Below are positions 50,915 through 60,577 of a stretch of 64,000 nt of DNA, piece after piece; position 1 is the first letter of the stretch; every line of letters starts with the position of its first letter. The translations under genes were made by a program, and so were the position numbers. This stretch comes from Neobacillus dielmonensis. Lineage in GTDB: Bacteria > Bacillota > Bacilli > Bacillales > Cytobacillaceae. The stretch covers positions 1-64,000 of the forward strand of contig NZ_HG942054.1 of the NCBI RefSeq assembly GCF_000612665.1. The letters run 5' to 3'. The notes under the pieces were generated by a model. That model had not been told where the DNA came from, did not search any database, and saw only the letters and a list, made by a program, of their open reading frames with translations.

Positions 50915-51424
50915 TTAATTATCATATTTTTTAGCCCAGTTGTATAACTGCATTTCAGTGACGGGGCCATTATAATGTTCTCTGATGATCCCCTGCTTAT
51001 CAATAACAAAGGTTTCGGGTTGTCCCGTTACATTAAATTGTTTTGAAACTTTTGCATTATAGTCAAATAAATAGGTCATTCCCTCCTTGTTGTTTTCAGA
51101 GACTTTTTTAATGCGGTCAACGGTTTCACCACGGTTGATCATTAATAAAGGATATTTAATTCCATAATCCTTTTGAAATGCCGCCAGTTCAGGAAATTCC
51201 TCCTTACATGGAGCACACCAGCTTGCAAAGTAGTTCAATATCACCACTTTGCCTTTAAAATCCTCAAGTTGGGTTGTTGTACCATTATAATTAGGCAGCA
51301 CGAAAGAATATGCCTGATCCCCCACATCTGTGTGTTTTCCTTTTGTGACCAGGCTATATCCAAAAAACCCAAACATGCTAATTACTAAAACTAACACGAA
51401 TAATTTAATAATCGGTTTTTTCAT
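50915..51424 (-). CDS. ResA/CcmG-like thiol-disulfide oxidoreductase
   Basis: Membrane-anchored thioredoxin-like protein expected to reduce apocytochrome c CXXCH thiols outside the membrane before heme attachment. It has a single N-terminal helix (about residues 6-24), a TlpA-like domain with the active site FASWCAPCKEEFPEL near residue 65, and the cis-proline TGQPETFVI near 132. The ATG at 51424 (169 aa) has TGGAGGCG upstream. It is the last gene of the ccm operon, so it most likely plays the CcmG role; a ResA copy for System II may exist elsewhere. Confidence 0.88.
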   Translation of the reverse strand: MKKPIIKLFVLVLVISMFGFFGYSLVTKGKHTDVGDQAYSFVLPNYNGTTTQLEDFKGKVVILNYFASWCAPCKEEFPELAAFQKDYGIKYPLLMINRGETVDRIKKVSENNKEGMTYLFDYNAKVSKQFNVTGQPETFVIDKQGIIREHYNGPVTEMQLYNWAKKYDN

Positions 51425-51493
51425 CGTAACGCCTCCATACGATCCTGGGGTGTTGTACAATACAGGCTGACTTCCTTGTCAGCCTTATTGGTT

Positions 51494-51625
51494 CTATTTC
51501 TCCAATTGCTTTAAAAATTCAATATCCTTCTTGAGCTTGCTTTGTTTTCTGTCCAAAATGAAAAGATAGCCAAAAATAACCACCCAAGCTACTGTATAGG
51601 CCGCATACATATATTGATAAGTCAT
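51494..51625 (-). CDS. ccmD: CcmD-like heme exporter small subunit
   Basis: A 43 aa membrane peptide with one helix (AAYTVAWVVIFGYLFILDRK) and a charged cytosolic tail (KLKKDIEFLKQLEK), the CcmD pattern. It would bind CcmC and help release holo-CcmE. ATG after TAGGAGGAATCAAG; it starts 11 bases after the ccmC stop. Too short for ordinary gene tables, found by reading the gap between ccmC and the thioredoxin-like gene. Confidence 0.85.
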   Translation of the reverse strand: MTYQYMYAAYTVAWVVIFGYLFILDRKQSKLKKDIEFLKQLEK

Positions 51626-51636
51626 CTTGATTCCTC

Positions 51637-52398
51637 CTAATTTTCGATATCCATTCTTAACTTTTCTTTATACTGCTCAACCTTTATTTTCAAATTTTCA
51701 AGTGTGACGCCTTTATTTAACAAGTAGGCATAAAGAATTGTAAAAGCTAAAATGGAAATTAACAATGCAGCAAGCATGGAAGGTGCAATGCCGCCTCCTG
51801 ATTGGTCCGATCCTTCGCCAAATACGACCGGATGCAATTTGGTCTGCCACCAGCGAATGGCAAAGAAAACAATGGGAACATCTACAAAACCAATAATGCC
51901 AAATACAGAGGCCAGCCGGGCCTTTTTATCCCAGACCCCATCCATTTGCCTGATCATGATATAAGCAATGTAGAGGAAGAAGAGAATTAGTGTGGTAATC
52001 AACCGCGGCTCCCAGACCCACCATGTATTCCAAGCTGATTTCGCCCAAATAGGACCTGTTGTTAAAACAATAATGGTAAAAACTACACCAATTTCAGCGG
52101 ACACATACGCGTATGTATCGTATATTCTTTGACGCTTAACCAGGAACAAAATACTAAATAAGCAAGTTATGAAAAAGGCAAAAAAGGCAACCCATGCGGA
52201 ACTGACATGAAAATAAAAAATCTTTTGAGCAGCCCCCATTGTCTTTTCTTCCTCTGCATAAAGGAAAATAAAATAAATTGATGTCAACATCGTAATAATG
52301 GTACTGCCAAGTAATACCTTTGGCAGATAGGCGCTCTTTGATTTTGAGAGCGGAGAATCAGGAAGCAGTGGTTTCTCTTGTTCGAGATTCATACTCAT
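51637..52398 (-). CDS. ccmC: Cytochrome c biogenesis heme-handling protein CcmC
   Basis: Loads heme onto CcmE at the outer face of the membrane. The 253 aa protein has six predicted transmembrane helices and the tryptophan-rich WWD motif AWNTWWVWEPRLITTLILFF near residues 122-141, with flanking histidines (FYFHVSSAW near residue 62, KLHPVVF near 188) as heme ligands. It lies 3 bases after ccmB, within the ccm operon. Confidence 0.92.
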   Translation of the reverse strand: MSMNLEQEKPLLPDSPLSKSKSAYLPKVLLGSTIITMLTSIYFIFLYAEEEKTMGAAQKIFYFHVSSAWVAFFAFFITCLFSILFLVKRQRIYDTYAYVSAEIGVVFTIIVLTTGPIWAKSAWNTWWVWEPRLITTLILFFLYIAYIMIRQMDGVWDKKARLASVFGIIGFVDVPIVFFAIRWWQTKLHPVVFGEGSDQSGGGIAPSMLAALLISILAFTILYAYLLNKGVTLENLKIKVEQYKEKLRMDIEN

Positions 52399-52401
52399 TG
52401 C

Positions 52402-53082
52402 TTAAACCTCCAGTACATAATCAATTAAGAATAATGAAATTACAAAGAAAATAACATCATAGGATGTAACCATCTGGGTCCAAGCCAGTGCGCTCGATAA
52501 TTTGCTCATATCCGATAAAACAATTCTCGTTGCCTGGGTAACCCCAATCAGGACAGGGCTTGCGATTGGAAACAGCAGTAACGGAAGCAACATTTCACTA
52601 CTTTTTGAGTTTCCAGCCAATGCAGCTAAAAACGTCCCAATGGAAACAAATCCAAAACTACCAACAAAAATGATAAGAATGAAATAGGGTATACTTCCGG
52701 CCATATTGAAATCAAACAGCAAAAACAAAAATGGAATAGCAATGGTTTCGACAATCATGATCATGGTAAAGTTAGCAATGAACTTTCCTAAATAGATTCC
52801 TGCAGGCTCCATCGGTGCCACTAATAGAGCATACATTGTGTCATTTCGCTGTTCGGAGACAATCGATCTGTTTAAGCCTAATATTCCTGCGAACACGATA
52901 ATAACCCAGATAATTCCCGGGATGACCGCCTTTGTCATATTATTGGACGGGTCAAAGGCAAAGCTGAATACCACAATCACCAAGCTGGCGAAGATAATTT
53001 GGGTAACAAGCACTTGTTTTGTTTTCCACTCAGAAAACAAGTCCTTTTTTGCTAGCAAAAGAGCGGATTTCACTAGGTTCAT
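52402..53082 (-). CDS. ccmB: Heme ABC transporter permease CcmB
   Basis: Membrane subunit of the CcmAB transporter that uses ATP to release holo-CcmE from CcmC. The 226 aa protein has six hydrophobic helices and the family landmarks KKDLFSEWKTKQ at the N terminus, LNRSIVSEQRNDTMYALLVAP near residue 70 and LLPLLLFPIASPVLIG near 165. Its start overlaps the ccmA stop by 4 bases. Confidence 0.92.
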   Translation of the reverse strand: MNLVKSALLLAKKDLFSEWKTKQVLVTQIIFASLVIVVFSFAFDPSNNMTKAVIPGIIWVIIVFAGILGLNRSIVSEQRNDTMYALLVAPMEPAGIYLGKFIANFTMIMIVETIAIPFLFLLFDFNMAGSIPYFILIIFVGSFGFVSIGTFLAALAGNSKSSEMLLPLLLFPIASPVLIGVTQATRIVLSDMSKLSSALAWTQMVTSYDVIFFVISLFLIDYVLEV

Positions 53083-53783
53083 GACACTCCCTCCAGTTGC
53101 CTCGCATACTTTTCAGTTACCAATTCGATTGATTGATCTTTCACTTGAAAATCGTCCACTAGTTTCCCGTTTTTAATAATAATAATCCGGTCACAAATTT
53201 CTGCCGCCTGTTTAAAATCATGGGTAACCATTAATGTGGTTGTCCCTTTATTTTTCATAGTTAAGATGACATTATTAAGGATCGTCATCGCACCTTGATC
53301 CAACCCTGTATGCGGCTCATCTAAAAGGAGGATTTCCGGGTCGTGGATAATCGCTCTGGCGATGGCAATCCTCTGTACCATTCCACGGGAAAAGTTTTTA
53401 ACGGGATCATGCAGAAAAAAGGATAACCCCACCTCTTTCACTAGTTGAACCGCCCTCTCTTCTACTTGTTCCACTCCATAAAGCTTCCCAAAAAAAACAA
53501 GATTTTCTAATGGTGAATAATGGTCATATAGTAAACTAGCATGAGGTAAATAACCGATACTTTTCTTTATTTCGAAGCCATCTTTTTTTATGTCCAAGCC
53601 TTTCATTTTAACTAACCCGGATGTTGGTTTAATCAAGCCTGCAATAATCTTTAACAATGTACTTTTTCCGGCACCATTTGGACCAAGTATAGCCACTGTT
53701 TCCCCTTTGCTTACCTTGATGTCAATACCACGCAGTATCAACTTATTATCTGCTTGCTTTGTCAGCTTGGTTATTTCTATCAT
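53079..53783 (-). CDS. ccmA: Heme ABC transporter ATP-binding protein CcmA
   Basis: ATPase of the CcmABCD complex. It shows Walker A GPNGAGKSTLLK near residue 36, signature NFSRGMVQRIAIARA near 128, Walker B ILLLDEPHTGLD and H-loop TLMVTHDF. The signature has SRG in place of SGG, seen in several CcmA proteins. The ATG at 53783 (234 aa) is used because GGGAGG is 8 bases upstream; eight codons further up is another possible start. Overlaps ccmB. Confidence 0.92.
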   Translation of the reverse strand: MIEITKLTKQADNKLILRGIDIKVSKGETVAILGPNGAGKSTLLKIIAGLIKPTSGLVKMKGLDIKKDGFEIKKSIGYLPHASLLYDHYSPLENLVFFGKLYGVEQVEERAVQLVKEVGLSFFLHDPVKNFSRGMVQRIAIARAIIHDPEILLLDEPHTGLDQGAMTILNNVILTMKNKGTTTLMVTHDFKQAAEICDRIIIIKNGKLVDDFQVKDQSIELVTEKYARQLEGVS

Positions 53784-53808
53784 TGGTTGTTCCTCCCTTA
53801 CTAGCAAG

Positions 53809-54804
53809 CTACTCTATGAATTCACGTAAACTTAATTTCACCTGTACTAAATGCTGTTTATAGGCATTAAGCTTTGCTTGATATTCATTCTCGGTCAGCT
53901 TCCCGTCACCAAAGGTTTCTTCTAGCTCAATAATTTTATCCATAATGGCTTTTTGCTTAGACATTAACAGCTTAAAGGCCTTCTCTTCTTTATCTGCACC
54001 AAGCCGCTCCTGCTCAAATCTAGCTTTTCTTCTAAAGTAAATATAGTAGGAAACACCCGCAATGACGATGGCACCCATAATAATTAAAAACACATGCGGG
54101 TTAAATCTGTGCAAAGGTGATTGGGCCCACATTCTTAAATGGCCTGGGTTATGGAAGGCAGGTGCCGTTCGTGTAACAGAGCTAGTACTTTTATTGGTGC
54201 TATCTGTCTCTGCCAGCGCCGTATCACTTTTAGGCTGTATGTCTTTGTTGTAGAAAATAGTGAATGTTTGATTCGCTTTTATATTTTCAATACTGTATCC
54301 CCAATAGTTTTGATCATCAAATTTGAAAAGACCTTGACTGGTATAATCCGTTCCTTTAATTTCTATACTGCCCATCCCCTCTGGCACAAGTATTTGGAAC
54401 AACTGGACCGAATAGTCTACAGTGAGGTTTATTTCTTTCCCTTTTTCGACCCGATAACTGTAGGGCAGTACCATGGTTTGATTTGCAGGTATTGGAGTTG
54501 TCGTAATAAAACCAGTTTCTGTCTGTTTAAAGGCAATTTTGCTATCCGAAAAATTTAAGTCCTTAATCCCTTTAGGAAGGGTAACCTTTAATACCGCCTC
54601 ACCTTGTCCGTCCCCTTTATAATCCTGATCTGAGGGATTCGAATAATTCACCATGTTCATCATATTGGTAGATTCGTCTTCCCCGGGACTAACAACGAGA
54701 TAATCCATATCAATTACAATGTTTGAGTCAGCAGCCGCTGCTTGCCCGAAATTTGGAAATAAAAACAGCCACCCAAGAAGGAATATGGTGATTTTCTTAA
54801 TCAC
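53809..54804 (-). CDS. Unknown exported membrane protein with beta-rich ectodomain, ccm operon
   Basis: Not recognised. The 331 aa product has a signal peptide (residues 1-24, ending QAAAA), a polar beta-rich extracellular region to about 235 with many YxV/T repeats, one transmembrane helix (PHVFLIIMGAIVIAGVSYYIYF), and a charged helical cytosolic tail ending in a SHOCT-like segment FGDGKLTENEYQAKLNAYKQ. It overlaps the CcmI-like gene by 4 bases and precedes ccmA by 25, so it belongs to the operon. Its architecture repeats in the 351 aa gene at 58170. No CXXCH or conserved histidine pair suggests heme binding. Confidence 0.7.
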   Translation of the reverse strand: MIKKITIFLLGWLFLFPNFGQAAAADSNIVIDMDYLVVSPGEDESTNMMNMVNYSNPSDQDYKGDGQGEAVLKVTLPKGIKDLNFSDSKIAFKQTETGFITTTPIPANQTMVLPYSYRVEKGKEINLTVDYSVQLFQILVPEGMGSIEIKGTDYTSQGLFKFDDQNYWGYSIENIKANQTFTIFYNKDIQPKSDTALAETDSTNKSTSSVTRTAPAFHNPGHLRMWAQSPLHRFNPHVFLIIMGAIVIAGVSYYIYFRRKARFEQERLGADKEEKAFKLLMSKQKAIMDKIIELEETFGDGKLTENEYQAKLNAYKQHLVQVKLSLREFIE

Positions 54805-55184
54805 TTTACATCCCCCTTTTGCTTCTTATAGCTTTTCATTTGCAGTTCAATTTCTTTTTCCACTTCGGCCATCAGCTCTTCGTCAATATTGACTGTTTGC
54901 AATCGTTCCTCTTCCTGAAGAATATTCGCAATTTCCACCTCATATTGCTTCCGTAAATTTTTATAGTCGGCGTGCGATATTTTATCCATTTTGTACTCGA
55001 ATTCCAATTCATTCAAAGTTGTTAACAGTGCTTCTTTTGAAATGGATAAATCCTGGCCGCCCGTCTTATGCTGAAAGTATGTATCCCACTTAAGTAACGG
55101 GGATAAGATTAAAAATAAACAAACCAATGTCAATGCTGCTGTAAATATTATGGAAATAAGGGAGATATCCGGCATAACGTTCAC
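54801..55184 (-). CDS. CcmI-like N-terminal domain protein
   Basis: The 127 aa protein has a transmembrane helix (about residues 9-29) and a helical segment ALLTTLNELEFEYKMDKISHADYKNLRKQYE (quoted as landmarks ALLTTLNELEFEY and KISHADYKNLRKQ) that matches the first domain of CcmI. The TPR part that binds apocytochrome in proteobacterial CcmI is missing. It overlaps the next gene by 4 bases (ATGA) and follows ccmH by 3. A role as a membrane scaffold for CcmF/CcmH is inferred. Confidence 0.65.
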   Translation of the reverse strand: MNVMPDISLISIIFTAALTLVCLFLILSPLLKWDTYFQHKTGGQDLSISKEALLTTLNELEFEYKMDKISHADYKNLRKQYEVEIANILQEEERLQTVNIDEELMAEVEKEIELQMKSYKKQKGDVK

Positions 55185-55187
55185 ATC

Positions 55188-55691
55188 CTAAAGATACTTT
55201 TTACGTTCTTCATCAATTAAGGAAGATAGGATTTCCCCCTCAACTTCCTCTTCTATATCCTGTACCGTTTCATTCGTCTCGTCAGGAGCTTTTCTTTTTA
55301 CCCATTTACGGATGACAAAGAACAATCCGGCTCCAGCAATGCCTATTGCTGCAAAAGGAAGAGTCCAGGCAGCTAAGCTAAAGCCGCTTTTTTCTGGGGC
55401 AGTGAGTATTTCTTCTCCATAAATGTTGACATAATAATCACGGATTTTATCTTTATCCCATCCTTTTTTCATCATATCAACTAAATCTTGCTTAAATTCT
55501 TTGGTCTCATTGCAGGTATTTGGATCACACTCAAAATGATCCTGCCCGCATCCGCAGGTACAGCGAAATTGGGAAGCCACCGCTTTGAATTCAGCAGATT
55601 TGTAATCAAATTCGGCTGCGTGTACCCGCAATAGCGGAGTTTGAAAAATGACGAACAGAATAAGGAAACCGAGATATACTTTATTCTTCAT
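55188..55691 (-). CDS. ccmH: Cytochrome c maturation protein CcmH-like
   Basis: Exported, membrane-anchored thiol protein that would resolve apocytochrome disulfides with CcmF. It has a signal peptide (residues 1-25), an ectodomain with a cysteine cluster FRCTCGCGQDHFECDPNTC near residues 44-62 in place of the proteobacterial LRCxxC, the helical FKQDLVDMMKKGWDKDKIRDYYVNIYG core, and one helix near 108-130. ATG at 55691 (167 aa) follows GAGGTGG. It starts 2 bases after ccmF ends. The Gram-positive style cysteine cluster has more thiols than usual. Confidence 0.85.
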   Translation of the reverse strand: MKNKVYLGFLILFVIFQTPLLRVHAAEFDYKSAEFKAVASQFRCTCGCGQDHFECDPNTCNETKEFKQDLVDMMKKGWDKDKIRDYYVNIYGEEILTAPEKSGFSLAAWTLPFAAIGIAGAGLFFVIRKWVKRKAPDETNETVQDIEEEVEGEILSSLIDEERKKYL

Positions 55692-55693
55692 GT

Positions 55694-57676
55694 TTATGCC
55701 ACCTCTTTGCACACCCCAGTGTACCTTGGAGTGACATTACCATATTTCCCATTCCAGATTGCAAAAAGTGCACCAATAACAATCATGAAAGAACCGACCC
55801 ATAGCCAATTCATCATTGGGTTAATTTTTACCACAAAGGTTGCTTTGCCGTCATCTTCCCATGCACTTAAAACGACATACAGGTCTTCTCTCATAGAAGA
55901 GATAATTGAGACTTCAGAGGAAGGCTGATCCCAATTTCCGTAGAATACCTTTTCAGGTTGATAGGTTCCTAGTTTTTTACCGTTTTTAAATACCGTTATA
56001 TCAGCATAAACGATATCATTGACACCTTCCTTTTTCTGATCAAGACGTTCGTAGTTGAGTCGGTAATCTTTTAATTCAATCGATCCTCCAAGCGGTACCG
56101 TTTTCATTGTCTCCAAATCATAGTTTTGTGATCCGATAATTCCCATCGCAATAAAAGCAATTCCTAAGTGAACCATATACCCGCCATACCTGCGACGATT
56201 ACGGATCATTAACCGATATAGAGCTACAAGTGGTTTTTCTTTGGTCATTTTTCTCCGCGCCTTGACACCACGGTAAAACTCCAAGAAATGAGTAATAAGT
56301 AAGAGGGCAATTACCCCATAGCCAATAACGGCCCATGCTTTATGCATACCCAAGAAGATCATTAATCCCATTGCAGCTACAGCAATTATAGCCGGCACGA
56401 GAAAGTTCTTTCTTAAATTCTTAACCGTAGATTTTTGCCAGGCTAACAAAGGACAAACCGCCATGACGAACATCATAGATAATAAAATCGGAGCTTCTAC
56501 TTTGTTAAAGAACGGCAGTCCGACTGTAACCTTGGTTCCTCTGACTGCTTCTGACACAAGTGGAAAAATGGTTCCCCAGAATGTTGCAAATGCAGCCCCA
56601 ACAAGCAAAAGATTGTTGACTAAAAAGCTGCTTTCTTTTGAGATAAGGGATTGAAACTCTCCTGCACTGCGTTTTAATAAATTGTAGCGGCTCATCAGCA
56701 CGTAGAGTGCTCCAATAACAGCAATTGCCATAAAGATTAAGAAGTAGAGACCCAAATTCGAGTTGGCGAATGCGTGTACACTTGTCAGTACACCACTTCG
56801 CACCAAGAATGTTCCAAAAAGGGTCAAAGCATATGATACAATTATTAGGCTAATATTCCACACCTTGAGCATATTTTTACGTTCTTGAATCATAACAGAA
56901 TGCAAGAAAGCAGTAGCTGTTAGCCATGGCATAAATGAGGCATTTTCAACCGCATCCCAGGACCAGTAGCCGCCCCAGCCAAGTTCAACATACGCCCATT
57001 GGCCCCCGAAAATATTTCCAAGACTTAAGAATAGCCAAGCAATAATCGTCCATCGCCTAGTCATCTTTATCCAAAAATCGTCAACATTTTTCAATATTAA
57101 CGCCGCCATTGCAAATGCGAACGGTATGGCAAGACCTACGTAACCAAGATAAAGCGTTACTGGGTGAATAATCATCCCTGGGTTTTGCAACATTGGATTC
57201 AAACCTTTACCTTCAATTGGAATTGCGTCTAGAATTGCAAATGGCTTAGAGACAAAGGCCAATATGAAGAAAAAGAATACCGCATTCGCCATTAGAATGG
57301 CAGAAATATAGGGAACCATTGGATTCCCTTTCATTTTTCTCGAGAAGGCAATCATTGCTGTGTAAAGGGTTAAGAAAAACGTCCACAATAACAGGGATCC
57401 GGAATTTCCTGCCCATAAGGCGGTAAGCTTGTAAATGATCGGCAGCTCGCTGCTTGTATAGTCTGATACATACACATATTGAAACTGCGATGTTCCCAAA
57501 AGATACAACAGTGATAGCATGGCTAAAGAAGAACATAAAAGCAGAGCAATAATTCCACCTTTTCCACTATTAACAAATTTTTGATTTTTCGTGCTGATTC
57601 CAAGAGTGATAATAAGAAGTGAGTATAACGAGATAGCTAATCCTAAATAGATTATTGCATTAGAGAATAAATACAT
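55694..57676 (-). CDS. ccmF: Cytochrome c heme lyase CcmF
   Basis: Core of the heme ligation machine, attaching heme from CcmE to CXXCH. The 660 aa polytopic protein has about 15 helices, the WWD-type motif GWGGYWSWDAVENASFMPWL near residues 234-253, and conserved histidines such as MIIHPVTLYLGYVG near residue 170 and LHSVMIQERK near 259. A large outer loop follows near residue 520 (ETMKTVPLGGSIELKDY). It lies between ccmE (25 bases upstream) and ccmH. Confidence 0.94.
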   Translation of the reverse strand: MYLFSNAIIYLGLAISLYSLLIITLGISTKNQKFVNSGKGGIIALLLCSSLAMLSLLYLLGTSQFQYVYVSDYTSSELPIIYKLTALWAGNSGSLLLWTFFLTLYTAMIAFSRKMKGNPMVPYISAILMANAVFFFFILAFVSKPFAILDAIPIEGKGLNPMLQNPGMIIHPVTLYLGYVGLAIPFAFAMAALILKNVDDFWIKMTRRWTIIAWLFLSLGNIFGGQWAYVELGWGGYWSWDAVENASFMPWLTATAFLHSVMIQERKNMLKVWNISLIIVSYALTLFGTFLVRSGVLTSVHAFANSNLGLYFLIFMAIAVIGALYVLMSRYNLLKRSAGEFQSLISKESSFLVNNLLLVGAAFATFWGTIFPLVSEAVRGTKVTVGLPFFNKVEAPILLSMMFVMAVCPLLAWQKSTVKNLRKNFLVPAIIAVAAMGLMIFLGMHKAWAVIGYGVIALLLITHFLEFYRGVKARRKMTKEKPLVALYRLMIRNRRRYGGYMVHLGIAFIAMGIIGSQNYDLETMKTVPLGGSIELKDYRLNYERLDQKKEGVNDIVYADITVFKNGKKLGTYQPEKVFYGNWDQPSSEVSIISSMREDLYVVLSAWEDDGKATFVVKINPMMNWLWVGSFMIVIGALFAIWNGKYGNVTPRYTGVCKEVA

Positions 57677-57701
57677 TTGGTCACCTTCTCAAGTTTGCCT
57701 A

Positions 57702-58154
57702 TTATTGTTCTTTCGCCGGCTGGTTTAGCTTGTCCTTATGTGTTTCAGGATCATAGTTTTTGATATTTTGACCTTCATATTTTGAAGGGCATCTTGTTTT
57801 CACTGTTTCTGCCACAAACGTATCTTTTTTAGTTGGAGCTCCCTCAAGGATGGTTATGACGCCTTCGACAAAGTTATCCGGTTTAGTGCCATGATGAATG
57901 ACATGCATCAAATTGCCTTTGTTGTCCTTCACATCAAATTGCAATTCAATTTTGTCCGGATTCCATTTAATCGAGTCCTCAATGAGTAAACCTTCTACTG
58001 TAACATAATCGTCTTGATGCTGGTCCTGAGTGGCCAAAAGCTTGTCCAACGTTAACTCCACTCCACTTGACCCTGGCGTAGCAGCCATAAGGAGGAAAAC
58101 AATGGCCCCTGCAATAATAAGCCCACCAATGACTACAAGCGTGTTTTTCTTCAT
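57702..58154 (-). CDS. ccmE: Cytochrome c heme chaperone CcmE, CxxxY variant
   Basis: Membrane-tethered OB-fold protein that holds heme covalently between CcmC and CcmF. It has an N-terminal helix (about residues 5-25), the OB strands with VIHHGTKPDNFVEG, and the heme-site segment VKTRCPSKYEG. At the position of the usual heme-binding His (HxxxY) there is Cys, giving CxxxY, as known in Desulfovibrio and archaeal 'System I*' CcmE. The ATG at 58154 (150 aa) follows AGAGGTGA; a GTG three codons upstream is less well placed. Confidence 0.9.
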   Translation of the reverse strand: MKKNTLVVIGGLIIAGAIVFLLMAATPGSSGVELTLDKLLATQDQHQDDYVTVEGLLIEDSIKWNPDKIELQFDVKDNKGNLMHVIHHGTKPDNFVEGVITILEGAPTKKDTFVAETVKTRCPSKYEGQNIKNYDPETHKDKLNQPAKEQ

Positions 58155-58169
58155 CCTGCTCACCTCTCA

Positions 58170-59225
58170 TTAAATTAACTTTTTCATCTCTTCTTCGTAC
58201 GTGTCCTGGTCAATTTTTCCTGTTAGGAGTTTTTTCCGGAGCTCCTTTTTTTCTTCCGCCCGGTCTTGCCGGCTGTCCTTTTTTATTGCTGTCGGTTTCT
58301 TCTGAGTTGGCTTGTTTGATTTTTCAGGCTTTGCAGCACTTTTGAAACTTACTTTTAATCCCAAATACACAAATATCCCGGCAATAATAATGGCGATCCC
58401 AATTATTGATGCACCGCCAATTCCAATGAGCGATTTGTTGGAATTAGAACTTTTGCTGCCTTTTGTGACCTGATCGGTAGCTGTGCCGTTCACCCCTGCA
58501 TGGTTCTCATCATCCGGAGGATTAAGTTTGCTTATCGCTTCCATTGATGATTCTGTCCCATCCTTTTTGTAGGAGAAGGTATATTTTAGCGGCTCACCCT
58601 TTTTCACATTGCTGTACTGATAAAAATAGAGATCTTCACCATAATCATCCTTGGAATTATCCTGTGCCTTTGGTTCCATTTGGATATCCTTGGAGTTCAT
58701 AGGGGCATAATAGATAATGTCTAATTGCTCAATATCAGCATTATTATTCAGTTCATATGTAAAGTTCTTGCTGTCATTTACCTCGATTGTTTGGGTATAG
58801 TACTCAATGACGTACTCATATGTTTCATTATTCTTAATAGGGTTAGATGGTTTCCAGGAAATGTTCCCCTTTTCTTTGTCAACATCGTATGGACGCTGTT
58901 CTTCAGGCTTATCCTTTTCTGGAAAATCAGCTACTAAGATCGCCTCAAAACCTTTATCGTTAGCAGGGACCGGTATTTCAATTTTCTCATTAAAATCTTG
59001 TCCACTCTTGTTTGTAATCGTTCCATATTGGCTTACTAATAAGGATGGGATGTCCCGTGATGGCCAATCCTGAGGATAGTCAAACTCCGGCATGATTTGA
59101 ACTTGCATGGATTTAAAGGGAAACTTTTCGGCCTGAAACTCAGTTTCGGCATACGCTTTTGGGGTTATAAAGCTGATTAGAAAAAAACCGATTAACAATA
59201 CTGCAAGTATCTTACTTGTACGCAT
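58170..59225 (-). CDS. Unknown exported membrane protein, first gene of the ccm operon
   Basis: Not recognised. The 351 aa product has a signal peptide (residues 1-26, ending KAYAE), an extracellular domain to about 262 rich in acidic and aromatic residues (MPEFDYPQDWPSRDIPSLLV near residue 44), a transmembrane helix (IGIGGASIIGIAIIIAGIFVYLG) and a basic cytosolic tail ending in a SHOCT-like KKLLTGKIDQDTYEEEMKKL. It is 15 bases before ccmE, with a good AGGAGGATC site. Architecture is like the gene at 53809; the two may be distant paralogues acting in apocytochrome handling or complex assembly. Confidence 0.7.
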   Translation of the reverse strand: MRTSKILAVLLIGFFLISFITPKAYAETEFQAEKFPFKSMQVQIMPEFDYPQDWPSRDIPSLLVSQYGTITNKSGQDFNEKIEIPVPANDKGFEAILVADFPEKDKPEEQRPYDVDKEKGNISWKPSNPIKNNETYEYVIEYYTQTIEVNDSKNFTYELNNNADIEQLDIIYYAPMNSKDIQMEPKAQDNSKDDYGEDLYFYQYSNVKKGEPLKYTFSYKKDGTESSMEAISKLNPPDDENHAGVNGTATDQVTKGSKSSNSNKSLIGIGGASIIGIAIIIAGIFVYLGLKVSFKSAAKPEKSNKPTQKKPTAIKKDSRQDRAEEKKELRKKLLTGKIDQDTYEEEMKKLI

Positions 59226-59255
59226 AAAGATCCTCCTTGATTTAAAAAAACGACC

Positions 59256-59400
59256 GCAAAATGTTAAAGCTTTCCACTATAGTCCTCTTTGAAATAAATA
59301 TATTATTTATGGATGCTCTACGGCGGAATCACTATTGAACATTTTGTTAAGAGGGCAAAAACGTTACGTTTTCGTCATAAAAAAACCACAAAATGTTCAA
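59256..59400. promoter_or_regulatory. Candidate control region of the ccm operon
   Basis: Holds three near-identical words: GCAAAATGTTAAA (59256-59268), ACAAAATGTTCAA on the minus strand at 59336-59348, and ACAAAATGTTCAA on the plus strand at 59388-59400. The last two are inverted around the perfect palindrome AAAACGT-T-ACGTTTT (59358-59372). The gap 59226-59445 has no gene. Regulator unknown. Confidence 0.5.
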
Positions 59401-59423
59401 AAGTCTAAATTATAATGAACAGC

Positions 59424-59461
59424 AAAAAACCCCTGTATGAACATTTCATTCAGAGGTTTTT
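59424..59461 (-). terminator. Terminator of the selenoprotein-cytochrome unit
   Basis: CCTCTG / CAGGGG stem (one G-U pair) with inner complementarity, preceded by AAAAA and followed by TTTTTT on the minus strand. It overlaps the last codons of the diheme cytochrome gene. Confidence 0.82.
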
Positions 59462-60120
59462 GGTTCGCTATGTTGTTCTAAGGATCGAATATAGGTTACA
59501 ATATCGGAGATTTCTTGTTTATTAAGTTGGCGGACTCCTTCTTGTCCCTTTAGGGATGGACCCATCCTAGTTTCTTCACGGCCATATGCTGTATCGCTCC
59601 ATATTTGGGTATCAGTTGTATATTTTAAATATTGAGGATTGGATAAGGCTGGTCCCATTTTTAGAATGCCGGCTCCTGCCTCTCCATGGCAGGAAAGGCA
59701 GTATAAGTTGTATAACTTCTCACCATCTTCCGAGCTTCCGGTTATGGTTTTAGGAATATCAAAGTTAATGTCCTCTGTCTGCCAATTTCTAATAAATACT
59801 GTAAGACTGTTTATCTCATTATCAGATAGCCTTGGGCCATATGCAGGCATAGCAGTGCTTTCCCGACCATGTTTAATATAGTTAAACAAGTCTTGGTCAG
59901 AAACATTGTTTAAAAAATGCTGGTTATTTAGAGCCGTTCCGGCATTTTTTCCTTCGCCTTTTCCCGTTTCACCATGGCAGATTAAGCAGTTTTTGTTGTA
60001 TACCTTTTCTCCAGCTGCCACTGCCTTAGAATTTTGATTATCAAAGATTCTGCTATTTCCTATTGCAAATACAATGCCGATCATAATCAAAATGTAGATT
60101 CCGAGTAAAATTTTCTTCAT
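59446..60120 (-). CDS. Diheme c-type cytochrome, membrane-anchored
   Basis: Electron carrier on the outer face of the membrane. The 224 aa protein has an N-terminal uncleaved signal anchor (about residues 4-21) and two cytochrome c domains with heme motifs CLICH (45-49) and CLSCH (141-145); likely sixth-ligand methionines are in TAMPAYGPRLSD (Met91) and TRMGPSLKG. It resembles the CcoP/SHE class of tandem cytochromes. It follows the selenoprotein gene by 10 bases and lies directly upstream of the ccm operon that would mature it. Its redox partner is not in the window. Confidence 0.88.
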   Translation of the reverse strand: MKKILLGIYILIMIGIVFAIGNSRIFDNQNSKAVAAGEKVYNKNCLICHGETGKGEGKNAGTALNNQHFLNNVSDQDLFNYIKHGRESTAMPAYGPRLSDNEINSLTVFIRNWQTEDINFDIPKTITGSSEDGEKLYNLYCLSCHGEAGAGILKMGPALSNPQYLKYTTDTQIWSDTAYGREETRMGPSLKGQEGVRQLNKQEISDIVTYIRSLEQHSEPKTSE

Positions 60121-60130
60121 GGGTTACTCC

Positions 60131-60577
60131 TTATTTTGGCTCTGGAGTTGGAGTGGGTTCCCCAAAATCTTCATATTTTTTTGTTATTAAATCATAAATT
60201 TTCGCAGGGCTTTTACCACTAAGATTCATGTCAATCGCCTCCCGGGCGATATCTACACAAACGTCTCAGGATATGCCCATAGGGTCCCATTCACTAACGG
60301 CATTGTCACCACCAAAATGGCCGATGAAGCAGTCTAAATTGCTTTTATGACCATCCGAAACACCACATCCGCAATAGCAGGGAACTTGAGCAACAACTTC
60401 CGGATAATTAGATACCATCTTATATGTCTCTTGAACTTTTTCAGGCGCATTTAAGACATAATCCGGTAGTGGTGCATGTTTTTTATCAAGTGTGACATTG
60501 GCCTTATTAGAGCTGCAGGCAGCCGCAATGAGTACAATAGCAAAACATAGTACCAATAGAGAAGAAAGTTTTTTCAT
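60131..60577 (-). CDS. PCYCF-motif lipoprotein, probable selenoprotein (in-frame TGA read as Sec104)
   Basis: Predicted lipoprotein: signal peptide with lipobox IAAAC (Cys21), then PCYCGCG at 66-72, HKSNLDCF at 77-84, and WDPMGIS ending at 103. A TGA at 60266-60268 follows, yet the same frame runs on for 44 codons to TAA with sensible sequence (DVCVDIAREAI, LSGKSPAKIYDLI). Read as selenocysteine the product is 148 aa with a UxxC motif (Sec104, Cys107). A 6-bp hairpin with GG in its loop begins 15 bases after TGA, fitting bacterial SECIS. The PCYCF family is known to include selenoproteins; function unknown, redox or metal handling inferred. Confidence 0.85.
60234..60250 (-). promoter_or_regulatory. 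Candidate bacterial SECIS hairpin
   Basis: In the mRNA AUCGCC-CGGGA-GGCGAU: a perfect 6-pair stem with a 5-base loop whose second base is G. The loop starts 22 bases after the UGA. An outer UGU/ACA pairing may extend it. These spacings fit the bSECIS model, which requires a short loop with an early G at 16-37 bases from UGA. Confidence 0.8.

Follow-up and report, generated by a model that had tools for sequence, protein, structure and literature searches.

The DNA analyzed here is a stretch of 64,000 nucleotides from Neobacillus dielmonensis, which is referred to below as the window. On its minus strand, at 60131..60577, lies a gene for a putatively Sec-containing lipoprotein of the PCYCGC/CYCXC family, with a length of 148 amino acids including Sec104 and with TAA as its stop. 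The frame opens with the ATG at 60577, meets an in-frame TGA at codon 104 (60266..60268, minus strand), stays open for 44 further codons and ends at the TAA (60133-60131), with a gap of 10 bases to the ATG of the next gene, a diheme cytochrome, at 60120. The frame with its in-frame TGA and the short gap had been pointed out in the original prediction and were found again here. We read the TGA as selenocysteine from the TGA/Cys column of the relatives and the co-occurrence with selB; a gene caller that reads TGA as a stop would shorten the gene by 45 residues. Residues 104 to 107 spell U-D-V-C (60257..60268, minus strand), a UxxC motif that suggests a redox function. A pair of Sec104 and Cys107 had been proposed before, and both positions are invariant in our alignment A3 when Sec is counted as Cys. 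In the same alignment the pair is accompanied by His77 and four conserved cysteines. Three cysteines invariant in A3 (C67, C69, and C71) belong to the motif at residues 66-71 (60365..60382, minus strand), which had earlier been given as PCYCF; the correct spelling is PCYCGC, as in the name of Pfam family PF13798. The lipoprotein matches this family with 105.9 bits, above the gathering score of 25. With the NCBIfam equivalog NF041379, ‘CYCXC family (seleno)protein’, it scores 69.1 bits, below the cut-off of 90, and judging from the best E-value this cut-off is apparently missed by all 42 aligned members as well. Cys21 (60515..60517, minus strand), which follows a hydrophobic signal helix and is at least 90% conserved in A3, we take to be the probable lipobox cysteine. 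The relatives of the gene place the window in Neobacillus, and the nearest named one is found in Neobacillus muris DSM 110989.

The lipoprotein gene is the first of a System I (Ccm) operon for the maturation of cytochrome c, which spans 50915-60577 of the window with all its genes on the minus strand. It is followed by the two-domain (diheme) c-type cytochrome (59446..60120; PF13442 and PF00034, two stretches each), the protein P351 (58170..59225), CcmE (57702..58163; PF03100), CcmF (55694..57676; PF16327 and PF01578), CcmH (55188..55712; PF03918), P127 and P331 (53809..55184), and then an ABC ATPase that is CcmA by position, CcmB, and a cytochrome c assembly protein that is CcmC by position (51637..53807; PF00005, PF03379, and PF01578). 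The last gene encodes a thioredoxin-like protein (50915..51460; PF00578 and PF00085), presumably of the CcmG/ResA type given its position. For P351, P331, and P127, all three of which are conserved in the operon, no Pfam match was found. This System I operon stands in a Bacillaceae genome; for Bacillus subtilis, the available part of PMC12285233 describes System II (ResABC, CcdA).

A hairpin of bacterial SECIS type, AUCGCC-CGGGA-GGCGAU (60234..60250, minus strand), begins 15 bases 3′ of the TGA and has a G as its second loop base. In its position, pairing and loop G it fits the bacterial SECIS model as laid out in the accessible sections of PMC4607533. When the 45-base hairpin stretch is folded alone, 5 of 200 dinucleotide shuffles fold as well or better (z -2.43), so that folding from the single sequence is only modestly unusual. 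This is one of two points in favor of the alternative that the TGA is a true stop which ends a lipoprotein of 103 residues and leaves the downstream codons as a remnant; the other is that a standard six-frame listing terminates the gene there. Since the significance of the single sequence is weak, conservation was used in its place, and it is the conservation across species that places the hairpin beyond chance. All six pairs are found in 62 of the 64 Sec genes, that of the window included, and five pairs in the other two, whereas none of the 16 Cys genes has all six. Compensatory variants of the stem occur, namely AUUGCC/GGCAAU, AUCGCG/CGCGAU, GUUGCC/GGCAAC, and AUCGCA/UGCGGU. Covariation was tested with 40 of 50 distinct Sec stretches. 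Of the cells, 99.6% pair, and two-sided changes are seen in three of the six pairs, in 10 cells. None of 500 shuffles equalled the real stretches in pairing, cell count or score, while 5 reached the number of two-sided pairs and 6 the pair types. Versions of the hairpin that are slid along the alignment pair in at most 63.3% of cells, although the +1 slide still has two pairs, with six cells, that show two-sided changes. The loop G (column 26) is invariant in the 40 rows of alignment A4. The arginine codon in the loop is CGG in 53 of the 64 Sec genes, whereas elsewhere in these genes CGG encodes 2 of 48 arginines, a contrast that is expected under a constraint at the RNA level. The hairpin of the original prediction was not only found again with its early loop G but also covaries among the Sec genes, and this covariation argues against a true stop.

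What stands at position 104 in the relatives is also difficult to reconcile with termination. In a sample of 60 genomes of relatives, a homologue was found in 48, and 37 of the 52 matches listed contain one TGA. The column at position 104 holds TGA in 37 and Cys in 14 of the 51 translated matches (the remaining one is a short match), and among 79 named loci it holds TGA in 63 and Cys in 16; the two sets share genomes and are not independent. Among the 36 genomes of the same genus, 31 have the TGA form, four the Cys form only, and one has neither. An alignment of homologues had been suggested earlier as a way to refute the selenoprotein, and it gave Sec or Cys at position 104 and conservation of the 44 downstream codons. 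The Cys relatives continue straight past the site, and the codons downstream of the TGA are under purifying selection: compared with N. muris, dN is 0 and dS is 0.57, and the median dN/dS is 0.15 upstream and 0.18 downstream of the TGA (100 usable of 300 random pairs). By eye, the AAGGAG site that belongs to the next gene shares bases with the TAA at the end of the long frame, which also speaks for the longer product. In a sample of 150 genomes of the order, the lipoprotein family is present in 84 and selB in 75. A family member with TGA occurs in 16 of these genomes and selB in 16 of these 16; the genomes in which all family members are without TGA divide into 31 that are selB-positive and 37 that are selB-negative (Fisher 2.4e-5, uncorrected for kinship). 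The confinement of the TGA members to selB-positive genomes is a further point against a true stop, and we consider that explanation very improbable. Even less credible is readthrough of the UGA by an ordinary tRNA, or an assembly error, for which no supporting point was found: the identical TGA is shared by 63 named loci, which come from many different assemblies, and is always accompanied by the hairpin.

The decoding genes are present in the genome to which the window belongs. A search for selA, selB, selC, and selD, whose absence was to count against the selenoprotein, recovered all four: selA with 569 bits, selB with 352 bits, selD with 398 bits, and the tRNA-Sec with 63.3 bits against a gathering score of 47. 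Selenoproteins had been called rare in Bacillaceae, but for selB this did not hold: the gene is above the family cut-off in half of the sampled genomes of the order (75 of 150) and in all 36 same-genus genomes of the relatives sample, the window's own included. The SelD gene of this genome (G000:C36:9055-9981) itself has an in-frame TGA, and so do two further genes, one for a formate dehydrogenase above the family cut-off (G000:C27:45767-47776) and one that is formate dehydrogenase-like and scores below the cut-off (G000:C70:170875-171627). All three have a hairpin 3′ of the TGA, as seen in single-sequence folds that were made without shuffle controls. These TGA codons suggest that the Sec machinery has other likely clients.

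Judging from the frame, the equivalence of UGA and Cys codons, the covarying hairpin and the decoding genes, which are visible in the DNA itself, as is the operon, the UGA at codon 104 is very probably decoded as selenocysteine. Conservation and the machinery suggest that the tRNA-Sec and SelB would do so with the aid of the hairpin 15 bases downstream. The product would be exported and anchored in the membrane as an extracytoplasmic lipoprotein, in which the Sec104-x-x-Cys107 pair would lie beside the PCYCGC cysteine cluster, and such a lipoprotein probably has a redox role.

The AlphaFold2 model of the lipoprotein, in which the TGA was read as Cys, is a confident one with a mean pLDDT of 90.5 and a pTM of 0.80, and residue 104 immediately precedes a predicted helix at 105-119. 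In a Foldseek search the first of 16 matches is a Pseudomonas CcmH (2hl7; E 0.85, prob 0.38, TMt 0.56). Comparison with VIA aligned 75 residues of the 82-residue chain of 2hl7 with Z 4.3 and an rmsd of 3.9. A Z of 2 was reached by two of 42 chains, this CcmH and an aminoglycoside phosphotransferase, and according to the notes of VIA itself Z values of such size are unspecific. In a sequence profile search of the PDB, another CcmH (2kw0) came second with E 0.26; an unrelated saposin ranked first with E 0.17. With hhalign, two overlapping CcmH sets gave 86% and 91%, while four other operon proteins, used as controls beside the first CcmH set, did not exceed 7.3%; these controls are fair at best, as the alignments fell on signal peptides and the CcmG set consists of two sequences. 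The second CcmH set includes 29 wider rows, of which L191 is empty, and shares Neobacillus rows with the first set. No match of the lipoprotein to the Pfam family of CcmH, PF03918, was found at the gathering score, and three of 42 relatives match it weakly, with a best E-value of 0.17. Filing the lipoprotein as a CcmH was rejected for want of a significant PF03918 match. Each of these lines is weak and below the usual thresholds, and together they let the predicted fold lean weakly to CcmH, which is the only structural match to rise above unrelated ones. In the CcmH set, a motif of CxCGC type aligns with the PCYCGC of the lipoprotein. A true CcmH and the lipoprotein are encoded in one operon. 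Compared with CcmH, the lipoprotein adds a probable lipid anchor, an extra β-hairpin segment and another redox pair, one that contains Sec. According to the available part of PMC3884852, CcmH has a three-helix fold and is involved in reducing apo-cytochrome c. Based on this role and on the leaning of the fold, we propose a selenol–thiol exchanger: a CcmH-like thiol/selenol-disulfide exchanger might keep apo-cytochrome c cysteines in the reduced state for the attachment of haem, and in other genomes it might act on the cysteines of copper-handling partners. A CcmH-like role of this kind, in the maturation of cytochrome c or of copper sites, has in our judgment somewhat less than an even chance of being correct.

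The genomic neighborhoods bear on this question. The diheme cytochrome, ccmE, and ccmF lie downstream in 46 of the 63 Sec loci and in 7 of the 16 Cys loci, while cytochrome or ccm neighbors are missing from 16 of the 63 Sec loci, one of which (L168) sits on a 3.7-kb contig. In N. thermocopriae the Sec gene is kept and the ccm operon is gone between the Sec gene and spoIIIAA (L118 6001-6850), and no CcmH match was found in this genome (G033). In the order sample, 10 of the 16 genomes that have a TGA member likewise gave no CcmH match. A strict dependence of the gene on System I was ruled out, since genomes with the Sec gene and without a CcmH match exist. Sixteen loci outside the operon were inspected, and 10 neighbor proteins from six of them, chosen by eye, were typed. 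One possible option is that the selenoprotein binds or delivers metal, mainly copper, at the cell surface and has no part in cytochrome c maturation, so that the operon would be one context of the gene among several; this option is compatible with Sec decoding. Several Sec copies outside the ccm operon lie near copper or heavy-metal genes: L048 near a metal-sensing repressor and a heavy-metal P-type ATPase, L156 and L162 near heavy-metal P-type ATPases, L158 near SCO1/SenC, CopC, and CopD, and L050 near SCO1/SenC. The DsbD_2 membrane protein near L166 was counted on the same side, and the four conserved cysteines and His77 that flank the UxxC pair would suit a metal site. Yet the UxxC pair suggests redox work, most Sec loci are within the cytochrome c operon, one copy (L169) is in what appears by eye to be an arsenic-type cluster, and further inspected copies are near neither setting. 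We regard a role in metal binding or delivery as less likely than not.

The Sec and Cys forms of the gene probably have a history that differs from that of its surroundings. In a tree of the five neighboring genes, each of the seven Cys rows is a tip of its own surrounded by Sec rows, whereas the tree of the lipoprotein gene groups three Cys rows (L134, L136, and L146). The gene tree (79 rows), which has few columns and was made with a quick method, requires six changes between Sec and Cys, three of them forced by well-supported branches. The neighbor-gene tree (54 rows) requires seven changes, all seven forced, and in it the Cys label is unclustered, with 500 of 500 shuffles as low. The conflict between the two trees is likely due to the gene being a mosaic. 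For example, the Cys gene of N. drentensis NBRC 102427 (L134) and the Sec gene of AFS006103 (L132) are 69% identical at gene bases 178-400, which contain the redox motifs and the hairpin, and 99% identical over the rest of the gene, a contrast reached in 0 of 200 permutations; outside the gene their identity in 100-base bins is 85-100%, mostly at least 93%. The same pattern is found between L136 and L128 (67% inside the segment and 93% outside) and between L125 and L122 (69% and 94%), each with 0 of 200 permutations. Taken over L134 vs L132 or L130, L136 vs L128, and L125 vs L122, the mosaic segments lie at about gene bases 130-403. A middle segment that is simply hypervariable was ruled out as the cause by two Sec–Sec pairs: L129 and L130 are 98-100% identical across the gene, and L128 and L130 are 91% identical in the middle and 88% and 94% in the flanks. 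Among alleles of one class, the similarity in the segment is close to that in its flanks. For the Cys locus L143, two segment scans gave no mosaic segment (27 of 200 and 23 of 200 permutations), and its sequence looks like the product of a local change, with a remnant of the hairpin still present.

The redox segments with Sec and with Cys thus form intragenic mosaics, as if they had been swapped by recombination. The four Neobacillus genomes that have the Cys form only (G030, G026, G004, and G034) all contain selB, so that a switch between Sec and Cys would need no loss of the machinery. Conversions of Sec to Cys and remnant SECIS structures have been reported (PMC1794560), and no mention of segment exchange between Sec and Cys forms was noticed in the available part of that source. 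We can suggest that the alleles with UGA and SECIS and those with Cys and no hairpin are exchanged among Neobacillus strains as a cassette of ~200 bases by homologous recombination, so that switches between Sec and Cys, in either direction, would arise by swap of the segment as well as by mutation of the codon itself, and that the protein they encode serves cytochrome c maturation as a selenol reductase similar to CcmH; as a whole, this proposal is tentative and on balance doubtful.

The family itself has a precedent. A ‘CYCXC family protein (hypothetical protein OS_HP4), PF13798, UxxC’ is listed among selenoproteins in PMC13188914, and OS_HP4 with UxxC is also listed in PMC9312934. As PF13798 is already listed as a selenoprotein family, the Neobacillus gene adds a member to a known one, with which it has the Pfam family and the UxxC motif in common. 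Judging from the conserved cysteines, the UxxC of OS_HP4 can only fall at the 104-107 pair. The accessible parts of the two listings are silent on organism group, operon, function, and SECIS alignment. The Cys-type PCYCGC lipoproteins of Bacillales, for example in Parageobacillus (PMC13068155, available part), share the family but have CxxC in place of UxxC; they differ also in having neither Sec nor an intact hairpin, and eight such rows form their own branch of the gene tree. In the open-licence literature that was searched, the occurrence throughout a genus, the cytochrome c operon, the leaning to CcmH and the mosaic of alleles were not found. The uncharacterised catalogue entry OS_HP4/CYCXC becomes testable in a genus with named cultured strains, where the gene is mostly at the head of a ccm operon, and natural Sec and Cys alleles in near-identical operons are ready-made pairs with which to ask what selenium buys. 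Multiple copies of the Sec gene in one genome, some of them in tandem, are seen with L055 (G024), L156 6001-6958, and the Bacillus marasmi, DNRA2, and PS3-12 loci.
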